A DNA stretch of 21,099 bases, taken from the IMG/VR virus record IMGVR_UViG_3300043775_000214, positions 1-21,099 of that record; one strand, given 5' to 3'. The stretch comes from a virus. Both the position numbers and the translations under genes were made by a program. The notes under the pieces were generated by a model. That model was given only the letters and a program-made list of their open reading frames with translations. It was not told the origin of the DNA and did not search any database. Positions 1-8,878 of the stretch are shown piece by piece (position 1 is the first letter of the stretch; each line of letters opens with the position of its first letter).

Positions 1-2220
1 TGGCGCAATAGCAGTATTTGCAGTTACGCTGTATGGCGATGATGAAGCCCAAGGCGAGACATTGTAGGCCTCGCTTTGCAAGATTAAATTCGTCCGCTGC
101 TCCTCAATCTCCAGCCCCAAGCTCTCGCCCGTGACCGGGTTGTGCTCAAACCGTGCCACACCGCTTGCTGCTGTTTGCAGCACAGGGATGTAGTTGGTGA
201 TGGGGGCTGAGGTCGTTGGGGTGTAGGCTGTGACGGTGGAGCGTTGCTCGACCTGAGCGCCCCAGACAAAAACAGACTCAGTGCCTGCCACAAAAGACTC
301 AAACCTTGCGGCTGTTGCACTTGTGATTAAGGCCAGTTGAACTGCAGTTGAAAACGTTGCAGAGCTTGTAATGTCTGCTGCGATACAACGATACCATCCG
401 TTGCCTACAGACTCGATTGAGGCTGTGCATCCACTGGTGCTTCCGACTGTTCCAGCATTCAGGTCGAAGTTTGCAAAGAATGTCCCAAACGGAAGAGATG
501 GGGTGCTGTAAGAAGTGATCTGCAAAAAGTTAGACCCATTCTTTTTTGCATACACACTAAGCGTGTACTTCAAGCCGCTGATTACCGGAATAAGCGCGGG
601 GTAGATGCCATGCGCACCAGTGCCAGTTGCAGCAAACGTATCAGCGGTAGTCGTCCCGTCAGGAGCTGCTGTTGAATTTGCTGTAGTGATGCTGTTGTCA
701 CCACTCCATAAATTGCACTCCTGACTCCGCAACAGCAAATTCTCTTCAGCCTTAGCCACTGTCCTGCCGTCATAAAACGTGGCAGTGCTGGCTCGGGTAA
801 AGGTGATGCGCGGGTCAAGCTGCTCGGTGTTGGCGAAGTCCAGCAGCAGCGAGGGACGGATCGCGGGGCGCACAGGCTCGTTGCCCAGCACCACAGCAGA
901 CGCAGCAGCCGCAGAGGCAGCAGCAGCGGTGGCTTGAGTGGTTGCTGTGGTCGCGCTGGCCGCAGCCGCAGTCGCGTTCGCGCTGGCGTTCTGAATCGCA
1001 GTGATGTTCGCAGCGTTCTGGTTGATGTTGGCGATGTTGGTCGCGTTGGTGTTCACCGAAGCGATGGAGCCAGACACCGTGTTGACGCTGCCAATGCTGC
1101 CAGCAACCGTGGTCACGTTTGCCGAGACACCCGCCACTGTGGTGACGTTGCTGGAGATGCCAGCGACCGTGGTCACGTTGGAGGAAATACCCGCAACCGT
1201 GGCCACCGATGCAGACACACCAGCCACCGTGCTGACGTTGTTGGTCGGGGTAATCTGGCCAGCCACCGTGTTGATGTTGGTGGCGTTGCTGTTGACAGCG
1301 TTGACGTTGGAGATGTTCGTGCCGACAGCGTTGACGTTGGCAATGTTGGTGGCCACCGTGCCCACGGTATTGGTGCCCGACAGGTTGGCAGCCACCACGG
1401 TCACATCCTGGCCAGCGCCCAGTTCGCCAGCGACCGTGTTCACGCTGGCGATGTTGGTGCCCGTGCTGTTGACGTTGGCGATGTTGGTGGCGACCGTGTT
1501 GATGTTCGTCGCATTGCCAGCCACGCTTGTGACATTGGAGCTGATGCCAGCCACTGTGGTCACATTGGCAGAGATACCGGCCACGGTGGTCACGTTGCTG
1601 CTGATGCCTGCAACGGTGTCGATGTTGGTCTCGTTTCCGGCGACTGCCACCACCTGATCGTCAATTGCAGAAACGGCGGCGATGTCATCGCGGATGGCGT
1701 ACACAGCAGCCACCTCAGTGCGGCCCTCTGCGGCCACCGGGTTGCCGTTGTCGTCAAATGACAGGTACTTGCCAGCACGCACAGACGCACGGGGCAGCGT
1801 CATGTTGATGGAAGTGGGGTCGGTCTGCGGAGCCTGCATCGCACGCAGCAAGCCCTCGGCATTCTGTTGGTTGAAGATGGTCTGCTGGTCGAGCTCGTCG
1901 TTCAGCGTGTTGGCAAAGAAGTCGCCGCCGGTGGTGAAGTCGGTAGAGCGCGAGATGGTGCGGTTGCCGACAATGGCGTACTGGGCCGGGCTGGTCGGGG
2001 TCAGGGCCAAGCCAGCAGCCGTGATGGTCACCGATCCTGTGCCATTGCTGGCGATGGTCACCGTGTAGTGGGTGGTCAACGTCAGCAGGACATCGTCCTT
2101 GTAGACCGCGATGTCGGTGTTGGCCAGGATCTCGAAAGTGAAAGCATAGGGGCCAGCGCCGCCAGCACCGCTTGGTGCGTAGACTTGCCTGCGTGTGACG
2201 TTACTGATTGGCACTGACAT
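1..2220 (-). CDS. Tail fibre protein, T7 gp17-like N-terminus (partial, C-terminus beyond window)
   Basis: The frame is open for exactly 740 codons from ATG at 2220 to the window edge, so the C-terminus is missing. A strong Shine-Dalgarno (GGAAGGAA, 2227-2234) sits six bases before the ATG. Residues 1-160 resemble the T7-type tail fibre N-terminal domain that anchors the fibre to the tail: it starts MSVPISNVTRRQVYAPSG and has a TDFTTGGDFFANTLNDELDQ segment. Residues 190-400 are a shaft of about ten-residue repeats (VAGISSNVTT and variants, mixed with NIANVN types). Residues 410-445 are an Ala-rich, probably helical linker. Residues 471-485 (RITFTRASTATFYDG) are a motif common in phage fibre and head-spike proteins. 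A beta-rich, lectin-like module follows at about 491-660. After residues 668-720 (VLQTAASGVARFEHNP, then EEQRTNLILQSEAYN) a second similar module begins. The role in host recognition is inferred from family and position. It is the last gene of the visible virion cluster. Confidence 0.9.
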   Translation of the reverse strand, partial: MSVPISNVTRRQVYAPSGAGGAGPYAFTFEILANTDIAVYKDDVLLTLTTHYTVTIASNGTGSVTITAAGLALTPTSPAQYAIVGNRTISRSTDFTTGGDFFANTLNDELDQQTIFNQQNAEGLLRAMQAPQTDPTSINMTLPRASVRAGKYLSFDDNGNPVAAEGRTEVAAVYAIRDDIAAVSAIDDQVVAVAGNETNIDTVAGISSNVTTVAGISANVTTVAGISSNVTSVAGNATNINTVATNIANVNSTGTNIASVNTVAGELGAGQDVTVVAANLSGTNTVGTVATNIANVNAVGTNISNVNAVNSNATNINTVAGQITPTNNVSTVAGVSASVATVAGISSNVTTVAGISSNVTTVAGVSANVTTVAGSIGSVNTVSGSIASVNTNATNIANINQNAANITAIQNASANATAAAASATTATTQATAAAASAAAASAVVLGNEPVRPAIRPSLLLDFANTEQLDPRITFTRASTATFYDGRTVAKAEENLLLRSQECNLWSGDNSITTANSTAAPDGTTTADTFAATGTGAHGIYPALIPVISGLKYTLSVYAKKNGSNFLQITSYSTPSLPFGTFFANFDLNAGTVGSTSGCTASIESVGNGWYRCIAADITSSATFSTAVQLALITSATAARFESFVAGTESVFVWGAQVEQRSTVTAYTPTTSAPITNYIPVLQTAASGVARFEHNPVTGESLGLEIEEQRTNLILQSEAYNVSPWASSSPYSVTANTAIAP
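1030..1645 (-). repeat. Ten-residue (30-bp) tandem repeats in the fibre shaft
   Basis: Within fibre residues 192-400 the unit VAGISSNVTT recurs. It appears exactly at 1585-1614, 1168-1197 and 1138-1167, with near copies such as VAGISANVTT and VAGVSANVTT beside them. Between the two repeat blocks the units change to NINTVATNIANVNS-like stretches with Asn-Ile-x-Asn-Val spacing. The exact peptide copies use different synonymous codons, so the repeat is conserved at the protein rather than the DNA level. Such repeats are usual in trimeric fibre shafts. Confidence 0.85.
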
Positions 2221-2253: not shown

Positions 2254-5103
2254 TTAGTCCGGTTTGTAATAGAGCCCGTTGGCTTTTCGGAGCTCCTTGA
2301 GCTCATCGATCTTGACTTGTAGCCTGGGATCTTCTGCCTTGAGTATGTTCCTCGCGGCATCCATGAACTTGGAATGCACGCGCTGCACGGTTTTTTGCTG
2401 ATCATCCAGCGACAGCAGGTCAAAGCCAGGTGTCTGCATGATGTTCAGGATCTCCTGCTTGGCTGGCAGCTCCTTGCCGTAGATGGTGATCAGCCGGTTG
2501 TACTGGAATGCATCCATCTCTACCCCGTCGATCTTGCGCTCGGGCATGCCGATAGGTGAGCCCATGCGCACAAGTGCATCGTCCACCTCGGAGAACTGCT
2601 GCGGTGTCACGCGAGTGGGCAGCACCAGCTCGTAGGCCGCGCCAGTGCCAGACTTGGTCGGCTCGCCCCACAGGTTAAGCGCCTCGGGCAGATCGGCGCT
2701 GAAGTAGGGCAGCCTGGATTTGTATTTGTTGAAGGCCTCAATGAACCCTTTCACACCCATGGGCAGCTCGGGGCTTGCTCTGGTGTCACGGTTTGCCGGG
2801 TCAGACAGGCGCTCGATGCCAGCCAGCAGCGAGCCATAGGCACCGGCAGGCGAGCCACCGATCACAAAACCGCCGAACTGTTTGACCAGACCGTCCACAA
2901 TCTTCTTGCCGTCCACCTCACCCTGCTGGTTGGAGCCGATCAGCTTGGCCACCTCGGCCACGCCCTGGAGGTAGGGCTGCTCTTTGAGGTATTCGTACAG
3001 GCCATAGGTGCCGCCCAGGAAAACCTCCTCGATCTTGCTGGCATCGGGCTCATGCTTGGCGTACTCGGCATAGTCGGCAGAGATGGCCAGCAGCGCAGAG
3101 ATCGGCTCCATGCCGCTGTAGCTGTAGTACTTGTCGCCGATCTTGAAAGAGTATGGCTGCCAGCCATCGCGCAGCAACGCATCGCGGTCGGCCTTGCGAG
3201 ATGGGCCTCGCCCGGTGATGTTGCCCTCGGCAGCCAAGGCACCAAAAGTGGCCAGCACCGCAGAGCCCAGCGTCACCTTGGCCAAGGCCATGTCGCGGTA
3301 CACGCCGCCCTTGGCGATCTCTTCGCGCCACTGCGATGACAGCGGGGCAAACGGGGTGCGTTCAATGACCTGCAGGCCGATGTTGGCCGGGGTCTTGAAG
3401 AACGGCACCACGATCTTAAGGGCGGGGTGATTAAATGTCCCCTGCAAACTCTTAAGAGCTGGCGGCAGCTCGGCGGTGAAGGTGCCCTTCTGGGAAAACA
3501 ACACAGCGGCCTCGTCCAGGTCACGGGGCGGGTTCTGGAACAGGCTGATTGCCTCGGCCTCGGCTTTGGCCAGCGCATCTGCTTCTGGCATTCCAGAGTC
3601 CAGCGCCTCGCGGTAGACCGTCTTGCTGCGCCGAGTGATCTGGGCGTTGAGCTCCATGCGGTAGAGCACGCCCTTGAAGAACTCGTCCTCAGACATCAGC
3701 AGCCTGCCGGGCAGGGTGACGGCAGTGCCGTAGTAGTCGATGGCCTTGGCCAGCCACTTGTCCTGCTCGATGCCGAAAGCAGCCGAGCTGATCGATGGCA
3801 GCTCGCCACCACGCTGCGCCTCGACTTTGCTCATCAAGTCACTAGGCTCGTTCTTTCTGAATGCGGTAGCGGCCAGATCAAAGCCTTCGACCAGCCCGTT
3901 GCGCATTGACTGAATCATGGTCAACGCTTCGTCGTAGCCGATCTTCTCTGCCTCGCTGCCAGGCACCAGCGATTTCCAAGACCGCACCCCTGCCGGCAGC
4001 ACATTGCCGTAGAAGGCAGCGACCACTTTCTCGGGGATCTGGTACAGGCCGAACAGGCTGTTCGACACAATGTTCTTGGCGTGCGATACGGGGCTGGACA
4101 GCAGCCCGTTGATGTAGGTTGTGAACCAGACATCCTTCACGCCAGACATCATCGACTTCTCGATCATGGAGTTCTGGGCCGCACGCGATTCCAGTGTCAG
4201 GTAAGACTTGGCCATATCAGACAGGGCCGCATCGCCGCCGTACTCGTCAATGACTTGGCGCACCACCGCAGCGTTCCCATCGCGGGGAATGCGGAACACG
4301 GCCAAAGCTCTGGCGGTCTCTGTCTGGATACCCTTGACACCGCGCTGGATCAGGCCGTGGAAGGCGATCTGCTGGCGCAGCACCAGCTTGTCCACATCGG
4401 TGGCGTTGCCGCTGTTGACCAGCTTGAACAGGCGATCCAGCTCGTTGGCGCTGGACTCCAGCACCTCCAGCGCTTTGTAGGTCTCGACGGCGTTGGCCAT
4501 CATCTTGCCATCGCTGCCGATCAGGCGGGACAGAAAGGCCTCGTTGATGCCCGACTCGGCGGCCTTGGCCTTGATCTCGTCAAAGGTCACCGCCTTGGTC
4601 TTGATGTTCAGCGCGTCAGCCACGCCGCCCACAATGGCTGCGGCATCCTCGGTCTGGTAGCGCGACAGGTTGAACGGCTCATCAGGTGTGCCACCGGGCT
4701 TGCCCTGGGTGATGCCAAATGTTTGCCTGCGAGCGACCGCACGCTCGACCGTGTCTGTCAGGACTTGGTCAGCCTCGGGGATCAGCTTAAAGCGGCCAGC
4801 CTTGGCGGCGGTAGGCAGCTCGCCTTCAACGGCACGGGCGGCATCTGGCACCAGATTGCGCTCGGCTTTGGTGGCCTGCCGGGTGATTAGCCTGCGGATG
4901 ATTGCATCGGCAGGGCCAGCAACCTGGGTGCCTTCCTCCATGCTTGGAGTGCCTGTCTCAGCATCCAGCGGGGGCTCGGCCATCATGTCCTGGGCCGCGC
5001 CAGGCATGGGCTCCAAAGGGATCTGATCGGCAGGTGTGCTGGGCGCAGCGCCCGGCAGGATCTGGCCTAGTCGTTGATCAAGGGGCTGTTGAGAGATGGC
5101 CAT
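2254..5103 (-). CDS. Large internal virion / ejection protein (polyvalent-type, gp16 position)
   Basis: This 949-residue protein is the longest complete gene in the window and sits where T7 has its largest inner-core protein, just before the fibre. Residues 1-65 are Pro/Gln/Glu-rich and look disordered. The rest is mostly helical. Recognisable blocks typical of very large phage internal or polyvalent-type proteins are residues 331-350 (NGLLSSPVSHAKNIVSNSLF), the FFKTPANI segment near 568-575, a hydrophobic helix at about 608-626, and the segment around 638-676 with LLRDGWQPYSF and YSGMEPISALLAISADY. These blocks suggest the part that inserts into or crosses the host envelope during ejection; this is inference. 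I see no lysozyme or lytic transglycosylase motif. The ATG overlaps the previous stop by one base (TAATG), and the gene ends with TAA 34 bp before the fibre start. Confidence 0.75.
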   Translation of the reverse strand: MAISQQPLDQRLGQILPGAAPSTPADQIPLEPMPGAAQDMMAEPPLDAETGTPSMEEGTQVAGPADAIIRRLITRQATKAERNLVPDAARAVEGELPTAAKAGRFKLIPEADQVLTDTVERAVARRQTFGITQGKPGGTPDEPFNLSRYQTEDAAAIVGGVADALNIKTKAVTFDEIKAKAAESGINEAFLSRLIGSDGKMMANAVETYKALEVLESSANELDRLFKLVNSGNATDVDKLVLRQQIAFHGLIQRGVKGIQTETARALAVFRIPRDGNAAVVRQVIDEYGGDAALSDMAKSYLTLESRAAQNSMIEKSMMSGVKDVWFTTYINGLLSSPVSHAKNIVSNSLFGLYQIPEKVVAAFYGNVLPAGVRSWKSLVPGSEAEKIGYDEALTMIQSMRNGLVEGFDLAATAFRKNEPSDLMSKVEAQRGGELPSISSAAFGIEQDKWLAKAIDYYGTAVTLPGRLLMSEDEFFKGVLYRMELNAQITRRSKTVYREALDSGMPEADALAKAEAEAISLFQNPPRDLDEAAVLFSQKGTFTAELPPALKSLQGTFNHPALKIVVPFFKTPANIGLQVIERTPFAPLSSQWREEIAKGGVYRDMALAKVTLGSAVLATFGALAAEGNITGRGPSRKADRDALLRDGWQPYSFKIGDKYYSYSGMEPISALLAISADYAEYAKHEPDASKIEEVFLGGTYGLYEYLKEQPYLQGVAEVAKLIGSNQQGEVDGKKIVDGLVKQFGGFVIGGSPAGAYGSLLAGIERLSDPANRDTRASPELPMGVKGFIEAFNKYKSRLPYFSADLPEALNLWGEPTKSGTGAAYELVLPTRVTPQQFSEVDDALVRMGSPIGMPERKIDGVEMDAFQYNRLITIYGKELPAKQEILNIMQTPGFDLLSLDDQQKTVQRVHSKFMDAARNILKAEDPRLQVKIDELKELRKANGLYYKPD

Positions 5104-7118
5104 TACTTAGCTCCAGGCTGCAGAGCTTGACGGCCCTGTTTTAGGCGTTGCGGATTTCCGGTGGCAGGCTGGACTCCTCCAGCTCCGGAGGCACTCCCTC
5201 CGGGTATGCCAGCCCCAGGTAGTTCTCCCGTGTTACCGGAAGGTTGAACTGCTTGAGCAGATCCAGGACGTAGTCCGGCTCCTTCCCATTCTGGGGGTCT
5301 GATTCCACCGGCATTTCTGAAGACTTCATTGCGTGCCTCCTCAAGGGATATTTTGCCTTTGCGATATTGTAACCAGATGCTGTCGATCAAATCGACATTC
5401 TTGGCTTGGCTCTTGAAGGTATCAGGATACAGGCCACGCACTGCTTCCCAGGTGATTGATTGCATCTCGCGGGGCAGGATCCCGCGCTCTTGAGCGGCAC
5501 GGCGATACGCCTCGGCATACAGGCCATAAGTGCCTTGCACGCCGGTGACAGAGCTGTTCTTCGGGCCACCCTCGCCAACCACGCCAGAACCGAAGTTGTG
5601 CATCACCTCGCGGCTGTTGCCAGACAGTGGGCGCAGCAGGCCAGCGGCCACCGCATGGGTGTCGATGGTCACATGGCCAGCCGGGTCTTGTGGGGCGTAG
5701 ATGTTGTTGTAGAAGTTGCGCACCTTGTGCTGCTGGCCAAGGTTGCTGCTGATCGTCGCAAGGCTAGGGTCTTCCAAGATGACGATGGCTTTGCCGATCT
5801 CGTTAAGCGAACCCCAGCCAGTCTTGGTCGGTGTCTTGCCGTCCTGGTTCATGCGCAGACCAACGAAGTCACCCTCTGGGCTGACGATCTGATGCTCGCG
5901 TGGATTCTTGGCCTGGTCATAAGTGCGCAGCCACATGGCCTTGAGACCTGGGTCGTTGAGTTCTGCCAGGGTCTTGCCACGAATTGCGTCCACCATCGGG
6001 GCGTATTGCGGCTTGTTCCAGATGATCTTGGCCATCTCGTCCATGCTTGCGTCCCAGCGGGTGGTCTTCTGTTTGGTCGCAATGTCCAGCACACGCTGGC
6101 CCAAGCTCACGTTCATGAACCAGTCCTTCTGCGGAGACAGCACGGCCAGCACGCCAGACACAGCCTGGTCGGACACACCGTAATCATTGGAGAACCGGTC
6201 GGCAATGTTGCGTGCGCCGTCATACCAGAGCTTGCTGCGCTGGCGTGTTGCCTCAGGCACCTGGTCATGCAAGAAAATCAGGTTGTCCTTCACGCTGTTG
6301 ATGAAGTCCTCGGCCTGCTTGTCGGGCGTGCGAGCCTTCGATGCAAAGTTCGGGTATTGCTTGACCAGGCCCACGTTGTGCGCAAATGCCTCGGGGTCTC
6401 GCTTGGATGCCTCGAGGTCGATCACCAGCTTGTTGGCCAGAGGGTCTTCGGTGGCTTTGACTGCGGTCGGCAGCCGGGTGCTGACCACACCAGGGCCAGG
6501 TTGCACAATGTTCAGTGGCCTGGCCGACTGCGGCACCACAGCGGCCAGCGGCCCGGTGCCTTCCATGATGGCGCGGTTCAGCTGCTTGCCGGTTTCCTTG
6601 GCCAGCGCTTTGCCAGCCTTCACGGTGCCAACAGCGCCAGGGATCATGCCAATCGCAGCGCCACCGGCTTGCAATGCGGCAGTGCCGTAGTTGCCCTGCT
6701 GTGCAGAAGTGACGGCCTCGCCGCCCATGCGCACAGCTTCTTCGGTCTGCAGGCCGGTGCCGAGGAAGGGCACCACATCTGCAAAGCCAAGATTTAGCGG
6801 CAGGTTGCTGCTCGGGCCACCGAGCATCGTCTGAGCGCGTTGGCGAGCCTTGAAGCGATCCATGCCGAAGCGCTCAAATCCAGCCTGCAAGAACTCGGCC
6901 ATGCGCTCACGCACGGTCGGGTCATAAGCCTTGATTTCGCCCATGCCACCGCCAGCGTCCGACATGGTGCGCGATGGGCCAGCGGCCAGCTGCATGCCGT
7001 CCATGCTGGGCATTGCCTCTGCAGGCTGCTCTGCCGTCACAGGCTCAACCGGCGCGTCTGGGAATTGGACAGCGGTAAGAGCCGACAGGTACTTGTCTTC
7101 AATTGGGCTGTAGGCCAT
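5103..7118 (-). CDS. Internal virion protein with embedded enzyme-like domain (DUF7178-like?)
   Basis: 671 residues. The N-terminal part (1-215) is low-complexity Pro/Ala followed by a segment common in phage core proteins (GGPSSNLPLNLGFADVVPFLG, 100-120) and a Gly/Ala hydrophobic stretch (150-170). Residues 225-605 form a compact-looking domain with conserved blocks: LWYDGARNIADRF (297-309), GVLAVLSPQKDWFMNVSLG (322-340), KVRNFYNNI (465-473), VTIDTHAVAAG (483-493), YGLYAEAYRRAA (531-542) and EMQSITWEAVRGLYP (551-565). I recall this block pattern from a phage and plasmid family of unknown function, possibly DUF7178. The K-N-F-Y followed by T-I-D-T-H-A pattern is reminiscent of HhH-GPD DNA glycosylases, but that is only a resemblance. 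The C-terminus (615-671) is Gly/Pro/Gln-rich and probably disordered. The TAATG overlaps on both sides place it in the ejection-protein block, so the domain is probably packaged in the virion. Confidence 0.7.
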   Translation of the reverse strand: MAYSPIEDKYLSALTAVQFPDAPVEPVTAEQPAEAMPSMDGMQLAAGPSRTMSDAGGGMGEIKAYDPTVRERMAEFLQAGFERFGMDRFKARQRAQTMLGGPSSNLPLNLGFADVVPFLGTGLQTEEAVRMGGEAVTSAQQGNYGTAALQAGGAAIGMIPGAVGTVKAGKALAKETGKQLNRAIMEGTGPLAAVVPQSARPLNIVQPGPGVVSTRLPTAVKATEDPLANKLVIDLEASKRDPEAFAHNVGLVKQYPNFASKARTPDKQAEDFINSVKDNLIFLHDQVPEATRQRSKLWYDGARNIADRFSNDYGVSDQAVSGVLAVLSPQKDWFMNVSLGQRVLDIATKQKTTRWDASMDEMAKIIWNKPQYAPMVDAIRGKTLAELNDPGLKAMWLRTYDQAKNPREHQIVSPEGDFVGLRMNQDGKTPTKTGWGSLNEIGKAIVILEDPSLATISSNLGQQHKVRNFYNNIYAPQDPAGHVTIDTHAVAAGLLRPLSGNSREVMHNFGSGVVGEGGPKNSSVTGVQGTYGLYAEAYRRAAQERGILPREMQSITWEAVRGLYPDTFKSQAKNVDLIDSIWLQYRKGKISLEEARNEVFRNAGGIRPPEWEGAGLRPGSAQAVQPSGNTGELPGAGIPGGSASGAGGVQPATGNPQRLKQGRQALQPGAK

Positions 7119-8878
7119 TACTGATCTCCCTCTGCTTGCTTGAGCAGCTGCTTGATGCGGTTGAGCTCCTGCAGCTTCTTCTTGTCTGTGCCTGCTTTGC
7201 GCTCAAGGGCTGGCAGCGTGTCGCGGGTGATTGGCCCGTTGACCCACTCCTGCTTTTCAAATACCTTGAGAGAAGCCTGCGCGGCCTTGGCGGTCTCGGT
7301 GTTTCTGCGCTTGGCAATGTTGTCTTCCAGTTGGGTCAAGATCTGGCGCGGGGTCAAAGTCTTACCTTCAGCCGCAGCTGCGGCCTGGATCTGCAGAGCC
7401 TCTGCCTGCAGCTGGGTGCGGCGCTTGAACTCCTCGCCTTTGGGGTCAATGACCACCACGCTGCCGGGAATCACCGGGATGCCTGAAAGCTGGGAAATGC
7501 CGCGATCAAGCTGAGAGCTCTCGCGCCTGTCCTCGCTTTGCAACAGCTTGAGCGCTGTCACAGCCTCCTTGCCTGTGATCCCTTTTCCGACCAGTCCCCA
7601 GATTTGCTTGGGGTCGGTGATCGTGTTGTTGTAGATGCCAGCAAGCAGGTTGAAGTTGACAGCCGCATTGCCTTCGCCGCTAGGAGCCAGCAGATCCTTG
7701 AGCGTGCCAATTGGCACAGACCCCTCTGGCAGGGCGGTGAGCTGGGCAATGAGCTGCTTCTTCTTTGGGTTGCCATCAGGCAGCGGGAAAATCTGCTCCA
7801 GCAAGTTGATGGCTTGAGCCTCGCTTAGCTTCTTGGCTTCTGCAGCCTTGGCGTCAGCGATTGACTTGCGGTTATTGACGGCCACCATGAAGTTGGCGGT
7901 CACCTTTGCGACAGCGTCAAAATCGTTGACGATCATGGATTGCAGCACCGGGCTCATGTTGCCCAGGTCGCCGCCTCGCAGCTTTTGCAGCGTGCGCTCT
8001 GGGTCAATCATGTTCTCATCGGAGATCAAGGCCTTGGTCACAGCGTTGATCTTGGAGGTGCGCAGCGCCGCCTCAAACTTGGTGCTGTACTGAGTTTGTA
8101 GCGCCTTGTCGCCCAGCAGCAAAGACTGCGTCAGCACGTTCTTGCGGAACACATCGGCCAGCTCATCAATAGATCGCTGCTGACCATTCGAGTCAGTCCA
8201 GCTGCCCTGGGAGACCGTAGCCTCCAGGAGCCGGACACTGCTGTCAAAGTCAGAGTCGAACTTGGCAATGCGCTGGGCCTTGGCCCGGTCGAGCTCGGCC
8301 TTGTAGGCTGCATTGAGCACGGTGTTGCCGTGTGTGGCCATGGTGGCCTGGAACTTAATCGAGGCCTCTGGGTCAATGCTGGCCAGCGATTTTGAGTAAC
8401 CGTCCGACATGGTCTTGATCTTGGCGCCGACCTGATCGGATGTGGCGCGTCCAGCCTCCACATCTGCTAGCAGCTTGACCAGCTCGTTGCGGCCCTCAAT
8501 CTCAAAGTGGCCAGACAGCTCTAGGCTGCGAGCCTTGGCCACAGCCTGGTCAAAAAAGTTGAGCGACCTGGTACTGACAGAAGCCATGTCGCCACGGCCA
8601 CCAAAGCCCCACGGCATGCCTTCTTTGGCAAGCTGAAGCTGTTCAGGCGTCAGTGGGTTCTGCGCGGCAAATGCCAAGCCTTCCTGCTGGCGCATAACAC
8701 CGGCAGTCTGGAAAGCGCTTGCGCTCATGCGGTCGAGAATCTGAGCCAGTTGCCCAGCACCCTGCGCTGCCACTCGCGGCGCGATGTAGTCCACACCTTG
8801 CTGCTGGGCCTGCACCATGGGCACACCGCCCACCGAGCGCAATTGCATCTGACCTGATTCGATTCGTTGTGTGGCCAT
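7118..8878 (-). CDS. Internal virion protein (T7 gp15-like position)
   Basis: 586 residues, almost entirely predicted helix with Gln/Ala/Lys-rich stretches, no signal peptide and no clear membrane segment. It begins MATQRIESGQMQLRSVGG and has a YIAPRVAAQGAGQLAQILDRM stretch near 31-51. The middle and C-terminal parts have coiled-coil-like runs (about 340-360 and 480-500). It ends with the Lys-rich segment KKKLQELNRIKQLLKQAEGDQ. The assignment rests on length, helical character and place between a gp14-like protein and two larger ejection proteins. T7 gp15 forms part of the periplasmic DNA-ejection tunnel, and a similar role is inferred here. It starts two bases after the preceding stop and shares one base with the next start (TAATG). 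Confidence 0.65.
   Translation of the reverse strand: MATQRIESGQMQLRSVGGVPMVQAQQQGVDYIAPRVAAQGAGQLAQILDRMSASAFQTAGVMRQQEGLAFAAQNPLTPEQLQLAKEGMPWGFGGRGDMASVSTRSLNFFDQAVAKARSLELSGHFEIEGRNELVKLLADVEAGRATSDQVGAKIKTMSDGYSKSLASIDPEASIKFQATMATHGNTVLNAAYKAELDRAKAQRIAKFDSDFDSSVRLLEATVSQGSWTDSNGQQRSIDELADVFRKNVLTQSLLLGDKALQTQYSTKFEAALRTSKINAVTKALISDENMIDPERTLQKLRGGDLGNMSPVLQSMIVNDFDAVAKVTANFMVAVNNRKSIADAKAAEAKKLSEAQAINLLEQIFPLPDGNPKKKQLIAQLTALPEGSVPIGTLKDLLAPSGEGNAAVNFNLLAGIYNNTITDPKQIWGLVGKGITGKEAVTALKLLQSEDRRESSQLDRGISQLSGIPVIPGSVVVIDPKGEEFKRRTQLQAEALQIQAAAAAEGKTLTPRQILTQLEDNIAKRRNTETAKAAQASLKVFEKQEWVNGPITRDTLPALERKAGTDKKKLQELNRIKQLLKQAEGDQ

Follow-up and report, generated by a model that had tools for sequence, protein, structure and literature searches.

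A DUF7178 domain with a predicted HhH-GPD-like fold in a probable ejection protein of a T7-like phage

Described systems and the ejection-type locus

The described HhH-GPD enzymes nearest to the protein reported here are Ogg2 (MjOgg 3knt/3fhf, SsOgg 3fhg, TmOgg 3n0u) and AGOG (1xqo, 1xqp). In E. coli EndoIII the catalytic residues are K120 and D138. In bacterial defence, the anti-phage DNA glycosylase Brig1 acts on phage DNA, and its structural matches are uracil DNA glycosylases, not HhH-GPD enzymes (PMC11078745); the parallel it offers is that a DNA glycosylase can serve as a weapon in the phage-host conflict. The polyvalent proteins of phages and conjugative elements were described by Iyer et al. 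2017 (PMC5512222), in whose main text the words "glycosylase" and "glycosidase" are absent.

We analyzed a 21,099-base linear viral record (the whole stretch of DNA, hereafter the window), whose nearest isolate by capsid is Methylophilales phage MEP301. Its genes follow a T7-like order on the minus strand, i.e., terminase, portal, capsid, tail proteins A and B, genes of 197, 586, 671 and 949 aa, and tail fibre. We propose that the 671-aa gene probably encodes an ejection protein in which a constant N-terminal module is joined to an interchangeable cargo, here a divergent HhH-GPD DNA glycosylase nearest to Ogg2/AGOG. The cargo family, Pfam DUF7178, shares with Ogg2 the Lys-18-Asp spacing and the C-terminal Trp motif, and Ogg2 structures are the best fold match of its minimal homologue (Z 12.3-13.3); it differs from Ogg2 in its 7-11% identity, in giving no match to Pfam Ogg-HhH, and in its phage polyvalent/ejection setting. 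AGOG is the best match of the window domain itself, but the AGOG proteins are archaeal repair enzymes and the identity is 12%. As in polyvalent proteins, the relatives carrying DUF7178 are multidomain, with ART-PolyVal, PBECR5, LPD22, LPD38 or RadC, whereas the window protein has one cargo only.

An earlier note, made from the letters of the window, had pointed to a 671-residue, enzyme-like open reading frame at positions 5103-7118, within an ejection-protein block. The frame exists and has 671 aa, but it lies on the minus strand, the plus-strand frame that had been given containing stops, and the sequence blocks quoted for the domain were all found in its translation (WYDGARNIADRF at residue 298, AVLSPQKDWFMNV at 325, KVRNFYNNI at 465, VTIDTHA at 483 and QSITW at 553). 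An antisense frame in the same region (5460-6797, plus strand) was treated as a coding shadow. The ejection-block setting proved right: the order gp15-like / 671-aa-type gene / gp16-like was kept in the 94 loci with both neighbors readable, and the gene lies, as is typical of T7-type ejected proteins, inside a gp14-gp15-gp16 block. Among 45 phage records, "internal virion protein" genes also matched the gp16-like gene that follows it, whose product gave no match to PDB sequences. At the end of the window, a tail-fibre-like protein (1-2220, minus strand) carries many tandem TVAGISSNVTTVAG-type repeats. The coordinates of the features are collected in Table 1.

Table 1. Features of the 671-aa gene and its neighbors in the window
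Feature	Position	Strand	Basis
671-aa gene: N-module, DUF7178/HhH-GPD-like domain and C-terminal tail	5103..7118	-	ORF; Pfam DUF7178; conserved gp15-X-gp16 slot
N-terminal module, residues 1-~185	6564..7118	-	Common to two alternative cargo families; once without cargo (L074)
HhH-GPD-like (DUF7178) domain, residues ~263-566	5421..6332	-	Pfam, AlphaFold2 model, alignments
LSPQKDW, residues 327-333	6120..6140	-	Likely counterpart of the DNA-wedge loop LSAQATD of EndoIII, inferred from sequence
Insertion within the DUF7178 domain, residues ~370-440	5799-6011	-	Part of the domain at 5421..6332
Helix-hairpin-helix, residues 453-474: helix, G461-Q-Q, helix from H464-K465	5697..5762	-	Model secondary structure and alignment
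Lys465, predicted Schiff-base lysine (EndoIII K120, MjOgg K129)	5724..5726	-	Conservation, alignment
Asp486, predicted catalytic Asp (EndoIII D138, MjOgg D147)	5661..5663	-	Conservation, alignment register
QSITW, residues 553-557	5448..5462	-	Aligns with the C-terminal LDLYLWY motif of Ogg2
Nested 62-aa acidic ORF over the 3' end of the 671-aa gene	5141..5329	-	Out of frame; GAGGAGG ribosome-binding site, ATG
gp15-like gene, 586 aa, upstream neighbor	7118..8878	-	By position; sequence link weak
T7 gp16-like internal virion protein, 949 aa, downstream neighbor	2254..5103	-	PHROG 6651 internal virion protein, 2e-33
gp14-like gene, 197 aa	8881..9474	-	By position; PHROG 418 (internal virion protein) matched weakly, E 0.32

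The DUF7178 domain and its predicted active site

Relatives were gathered from viral contigs and from genomes. The 671-aa protein matched DUF7178 (PF23802) with 97.3 bits (gathering cut-off 27; E 1.4e-27) at residues ~272-560, and all 38 members of the window-type set (A2) matched it as well; the same domain is PHROG 3842, and both entries are labelled as being of unknown function. No score above cut-off was obtained with Pfam HhH-GPD (PF00730) or Ogg-HhH (PF22175), DUF7178 alone being reported for the window protein, and there was no match in NCBIfam and PADLOC searches or when PDB sequences were searched with the family profile. The domain is under purifying selection (median dN/dS 0.13), and its AlphaFold2 model, built with 38 sequences, reached a pLDDT of 92.8 and a pTM of 0.90; the match, the model and the selection bear out the proposal of a folded globular domain. 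The proposal that the flanks are only disordered tails failed on both sides, since the N-terminal ~185 residues form a conserved module and the C-terminal tail overlaps a conserved out-of-frame gene.

The window model spans 420 aa, and 205 is added to model positions to obtain the protein numbering. When Foldseek alone was run with it against PDB, no significant match was observed. When the Foldseek candidates were re-aligned (VIA), the first six were 8-oxoguanine DNA glycosylases or the AGOG-family entry 1xg7, all of them HhH-GPD, with Z-scores from 7.8 (AGOG; 203 aa, 4.9 A) to 5.0, and unrelated rows followed from 3.0 down. These values of 5.0-7.8 do not reach 8, the tool's caution threshold, and are on their own suggestive only, and therefore an independent minimal member was tested. 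As proposed earlier, the best matches were HhH-GPD glycosylases, and a purely helical-bundle virion core, which would have spoken against the enzyme-like reading, did not come up in the predicted structure. The earlier note could make out no clear helix-hairpin-helix; the model does show one (residues 453-460, GQQ, 464-474). In model numbering, helices 248-255 and 259-269 are followed by a loop and by D281, which N-caps the next helix (282-289), and the hairpin sequence of the window domain, GQQHK, is non-canonical. An all-helical HhH-GPD core was found on the predicted models, most strongly for the free-standing member. Gln330, located within LSPQKDW, was invariant in the 38 window-type sequences.

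The minimal member, found through BFVD, is a 198-aa protein encoded by cyanophage S-CBP42, and it matches DUF7178 over nearly its full length. With the S-CBP42-type model (38 free-standing sequences, pLDDT 96.2), the top nine Foldseek rows were 8-oxoG glycosylases or the AGOG-family entry 1xg7, seven of them at probability 1.00, with a best E-value of only 5.5e-3. By VIA-align the best match was MjOgg (Z 13.3, 3.5 A, 176/198 aa), and all 50 rows listed were HhH-GPD glycosylases or homologues. The window-type and free-standing profiles are homologous (probability 99.7, E 6e-27), and their alignment places K465 on K119 and D486 on D137. The free-standing DUF7178 profile scored 33.1 against the Ogg2 profile, to be compared with a maximum of 22.1 in 150 column-shuffled controls and with 38.5 for the accepted relatives EndoIII/MutY against Ogg2. 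The window-type profile gave no significant hhalign score against the EndoIII/MutY or Ogg2 profiles (13.5 against Ogg2), and hence the link to Ogg2 runs via the free-standing homologues. These were found in cyanophages and marine roseophages; the cyanophage copies lie outside the structural block, in one cyanophage a few small genes from the RNA polymerase, so that the domain appears to be useful also without ejection. A few deposited phage genomes name free-standing members glycosylase, DNA glycosylase or N-glycosylase/DNA lyase, and therefore the fold had already been recognized by annotators. A glycosylase fold for DUF7178 is not recorded in Pfam, in PHROGs or in the literature searched, where DUF7178 is not mentioned.

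Lys465 and Asp486 were conserved in 38/38 window-type (A2) and 38/38 free-standing (A4) sequences, i.e., in the 76 DUF7178 homologues sampled. The proposed equivalents in the two alternative cargo families described below were present in 37/37 (family B) and 39/39 (family C) sequences, so that both residues reach 100% across the four sets (152 sequences). D486 was aligned with the Ogg2 Asp through the free-standing set. The Lys-to-Asp spacing is 18 residues in the S-CBP42-type members and 21 in the window protein, and among the MjOgg structures 3knt has a Gln where 3fhf has the Lys equivalent to K465. By sequence position, the domain has both the catalytic Asp of HhH-GPD enzymes and the Lys of bifunctional glycosylase/lyases. 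The weight that had been given to Asp486 is thus justified, this residue being the predicted catalytic Asp in a fully conserved column, with a Lys at 465; and the glycosylase-like reading of fold and likely active site is backed by the model, the Ogg2 profile comparison and the conserved Lys/Asp pair.

Constant N-terminal module, exchanged cargoes and a nested reading frame

The N-module, which gave no match to PDB sequences, recurs ahead of two other C-terminal families, B and C. All three cargoes hold the gp15-X-gp16 slot (DUF7178 in 94, family B in 47 and family C in 13 loci with both neighbors readable), and they are mutually exclusive, no ORF carrying two of them. For family B, 116 stretches were confirmed and 80 loci retained (L419-L498; also L068 5781-8603 and L075 6657-9542); it is remotely homologous to DUF7178 (score 49.6 vs a shuffled maximum of 21.9; probability 89.9, E 1.7e-6), and its motif reads SPKTPNFTGNLIGLTNEATIDVWAAR. 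This sub-threshold DUF7178/HhH-GPD homologue also occurs within some ORFs of 1000-2500 aa. Family C (80 loci, L499-L578; also L073 4389-6644) has the N-module in front in 15 ORFs, and is mostly found in proteins of 1000-3000 aa. It gave no match to Pfam and PHROG, and its score against Ogg2 (27.9, shuffled maximum 22.4, E 0.005) is weaker than the evidence for family B. In the alignment, its Asp falls on the Ogg2 Asp and its Lys near the Ogg2 Lys, with the Lys-(18)-Asp spacing kept, and the GVGIDNK...VIDR motif suggests, at the level of sequence, a third HhH-GPD-like family. A natural cargo-less version was observed in one locus (L074 7971-8514), where the gp16-like gene comes directly after the N-module. 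The C-terminal GA[KEN] ending was considered as a packaging signal and dropped, since the gp16 ribosome-binding site, AAAGGAG, falls on it in L074.

Other relatives have DUF7178 inside proteins of roughly 1,300-5,100 aa, some of which carry ART-PolyVal, PBECR5, RadC, methyltransferase, LPD22 or LPD38 domains. Among isolates, Roseobacter phage CRP-738 has a DUF7178 gene (gp40) in its structural region. A multidomain effector architecture was seen in four relatives (L065, L161, L170 and L078), while the window protein consists of the N-module and one domain. The presence of DUF7178 beside ADP-ribosyltransferase and RNase domains fits the idea of a co-injected effector. Elsewhere, a single protein (L133 1465-4014) combines DUF7178, LPD23 and a weak metallopeptidase-like stretch (DUF6782), and a contig of Pseudofulvimonas gallinarii (L159 1194-9809) has a 2,872-aa ORF with GGDEF, RadC and DUF7178 matches.

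In the C-terminal tail of the 671-aa protein synonymous change is depressed, and the apparent dN/dS is ~1.6, vs 0.13 in the domain. Positive selection on the tail was rejected as the explanation, because an out-of-frame ORF overlaps it and is the constrained frame: in 36 relatives, pN/pS was 0.31 in the frame of the nested ORF and 2.01 in that of the large gene. The nested product has 62 aa and a net charge of -7, and its ATG is conserved, with GAGGAGG ahead of it. Of 153 loci from two DUF7178 viral scans, 135 have the nested ORF where the DUF7178 region ends on its 3' side, in some cases inside long polyvalent frames, and several of the remaining 18 are truncated at that edge or lack the DUF7178 domain; it was absent from family B (0/80), family C (0/80) and free-standing (0/191) loci. 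A profile search of 398 proteobacterial genomes gave one positive genome, with DUF7178 on the same contig and a second, partial match on another contig. No match to phages and plasmids was obtained by tblastn with the nested peptide, a search of low power for 54-62 aa. Our guess is that the nested protein is a dedicated inhibitor or chaperone for DUF7178.

Proposed function and competing readings

Given the predicted fold and its two catalytic residues, the phage may deliver a DNA-cutting or a DNA-repair enzyme with its genome. For packaging, catalysis and target of the 671-aa protein we infer the following course. Inside the virion, the protein would reside with the gp14/15/16-type core, and it would enter the cell along with the phage DNA. 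There it would bind DNA via the helix-hairpin-helix and flip out a base, which Asp486 and Lys465 (Schiff base) would excise; the strand might then be cleaved at the resulting abasic site. The target would be host or competing DNA, or a modified base, in an early-infection conflict. We favor conflict over housekeeping repair because in relatives the cargo is swapped, sometimes absent, and fused to effector domains. In an extended form of this proposal, which we consider doubtful, the phage group would deliver polymorphic glycosylase effectors on one N-module, and the nested inhibitor or packaging chaperone of the DUF7178 version would silence the enzyme in the producing cell until ejection.

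The same fold and chemistry could instead belong to an ejected repair enzyme, which would clear oxidized bases (8-oxoguanine) from the incoming phage DNA before replication. The nearest structural relatives are indeed 8-oxoG glycosylases, cyanophages and marine roseophages carry free-standing relatives, and other marine roseophages have pyrimidine-dimer glycosylases that were described as DNA repair genes (PMC11288001). However, similarity of fold does not fix the substrate, the cargo is swapped with two other domains and is sometimes missing, and other proteins combine the domain with RNase and ART effector domains, as is typical of conflict proteins, so that we hold this reading to be possible but somewhat unlikely. 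It is improbable that the fold is degenerate and serves DNA binding or guiding in ejection or packaging, with no catalysis. The gene does sit in the virion core block, and entry 4b21, i.e., Mag2, a glycosylase homologue not known to be active, is among the VIA rows of the free-standing model; but a DNA-binding relic need not keep both the Lys and the Asp, which are invariant in the 76 DUF7178 sequences and in both alternative cargoes.

Phages also recruit DNA-base enzymes for hypermodification, and a glycosylase-fold origin has reportedly been suggested for the phage thymine-hypermodification pyrophosphorylases, so that a base-modifying rather than base-excising enzyme might be considered. This is very unlikely: the Lys-18-Asp spacing is that of glycosylase/lyases, and among the genes of the 21-kb window, although most of them are structural, we noticed none for hypermodification. 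A comparison with aGPT-type pyrophosphorylases was attempted with PF18746, which gave no match in phage PhiW-14. Finally, the free-standing relatives encoded outside the structural block could suggest a cytoplasmic protein of late infection that never enters the virion, but the conserved place between the gp15-like and gp16-like genes and the constancy of the N-module across cargoes argue against it, and make it a rather improbable reading.

The proposal of an ejected, cargo-bearing glycosylase gives a testable function to a large family, DUF7178 being present in no fewer than 565 viral stretches confirmed in one scan and in 155 phage genome records in another. The ejection-type placement, the cargo swapping and the nested gene appear to be undescribed in the sources searched. 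The N-module with its three exclusive cargoes offers a handle on the loading of effectors into the T7-like core, and the nested gene is a candidate for a natural DNA-glycosylase inhibitor. A DNA glycosylase would join the enzymes that phages may inject together with their genomes: if it acts on host DNA, it would mirror, on the phage side, anti-phage glycosylases such as Brig1, and if it acts on phage DNA, it would represent virion-borne base-excision repair.
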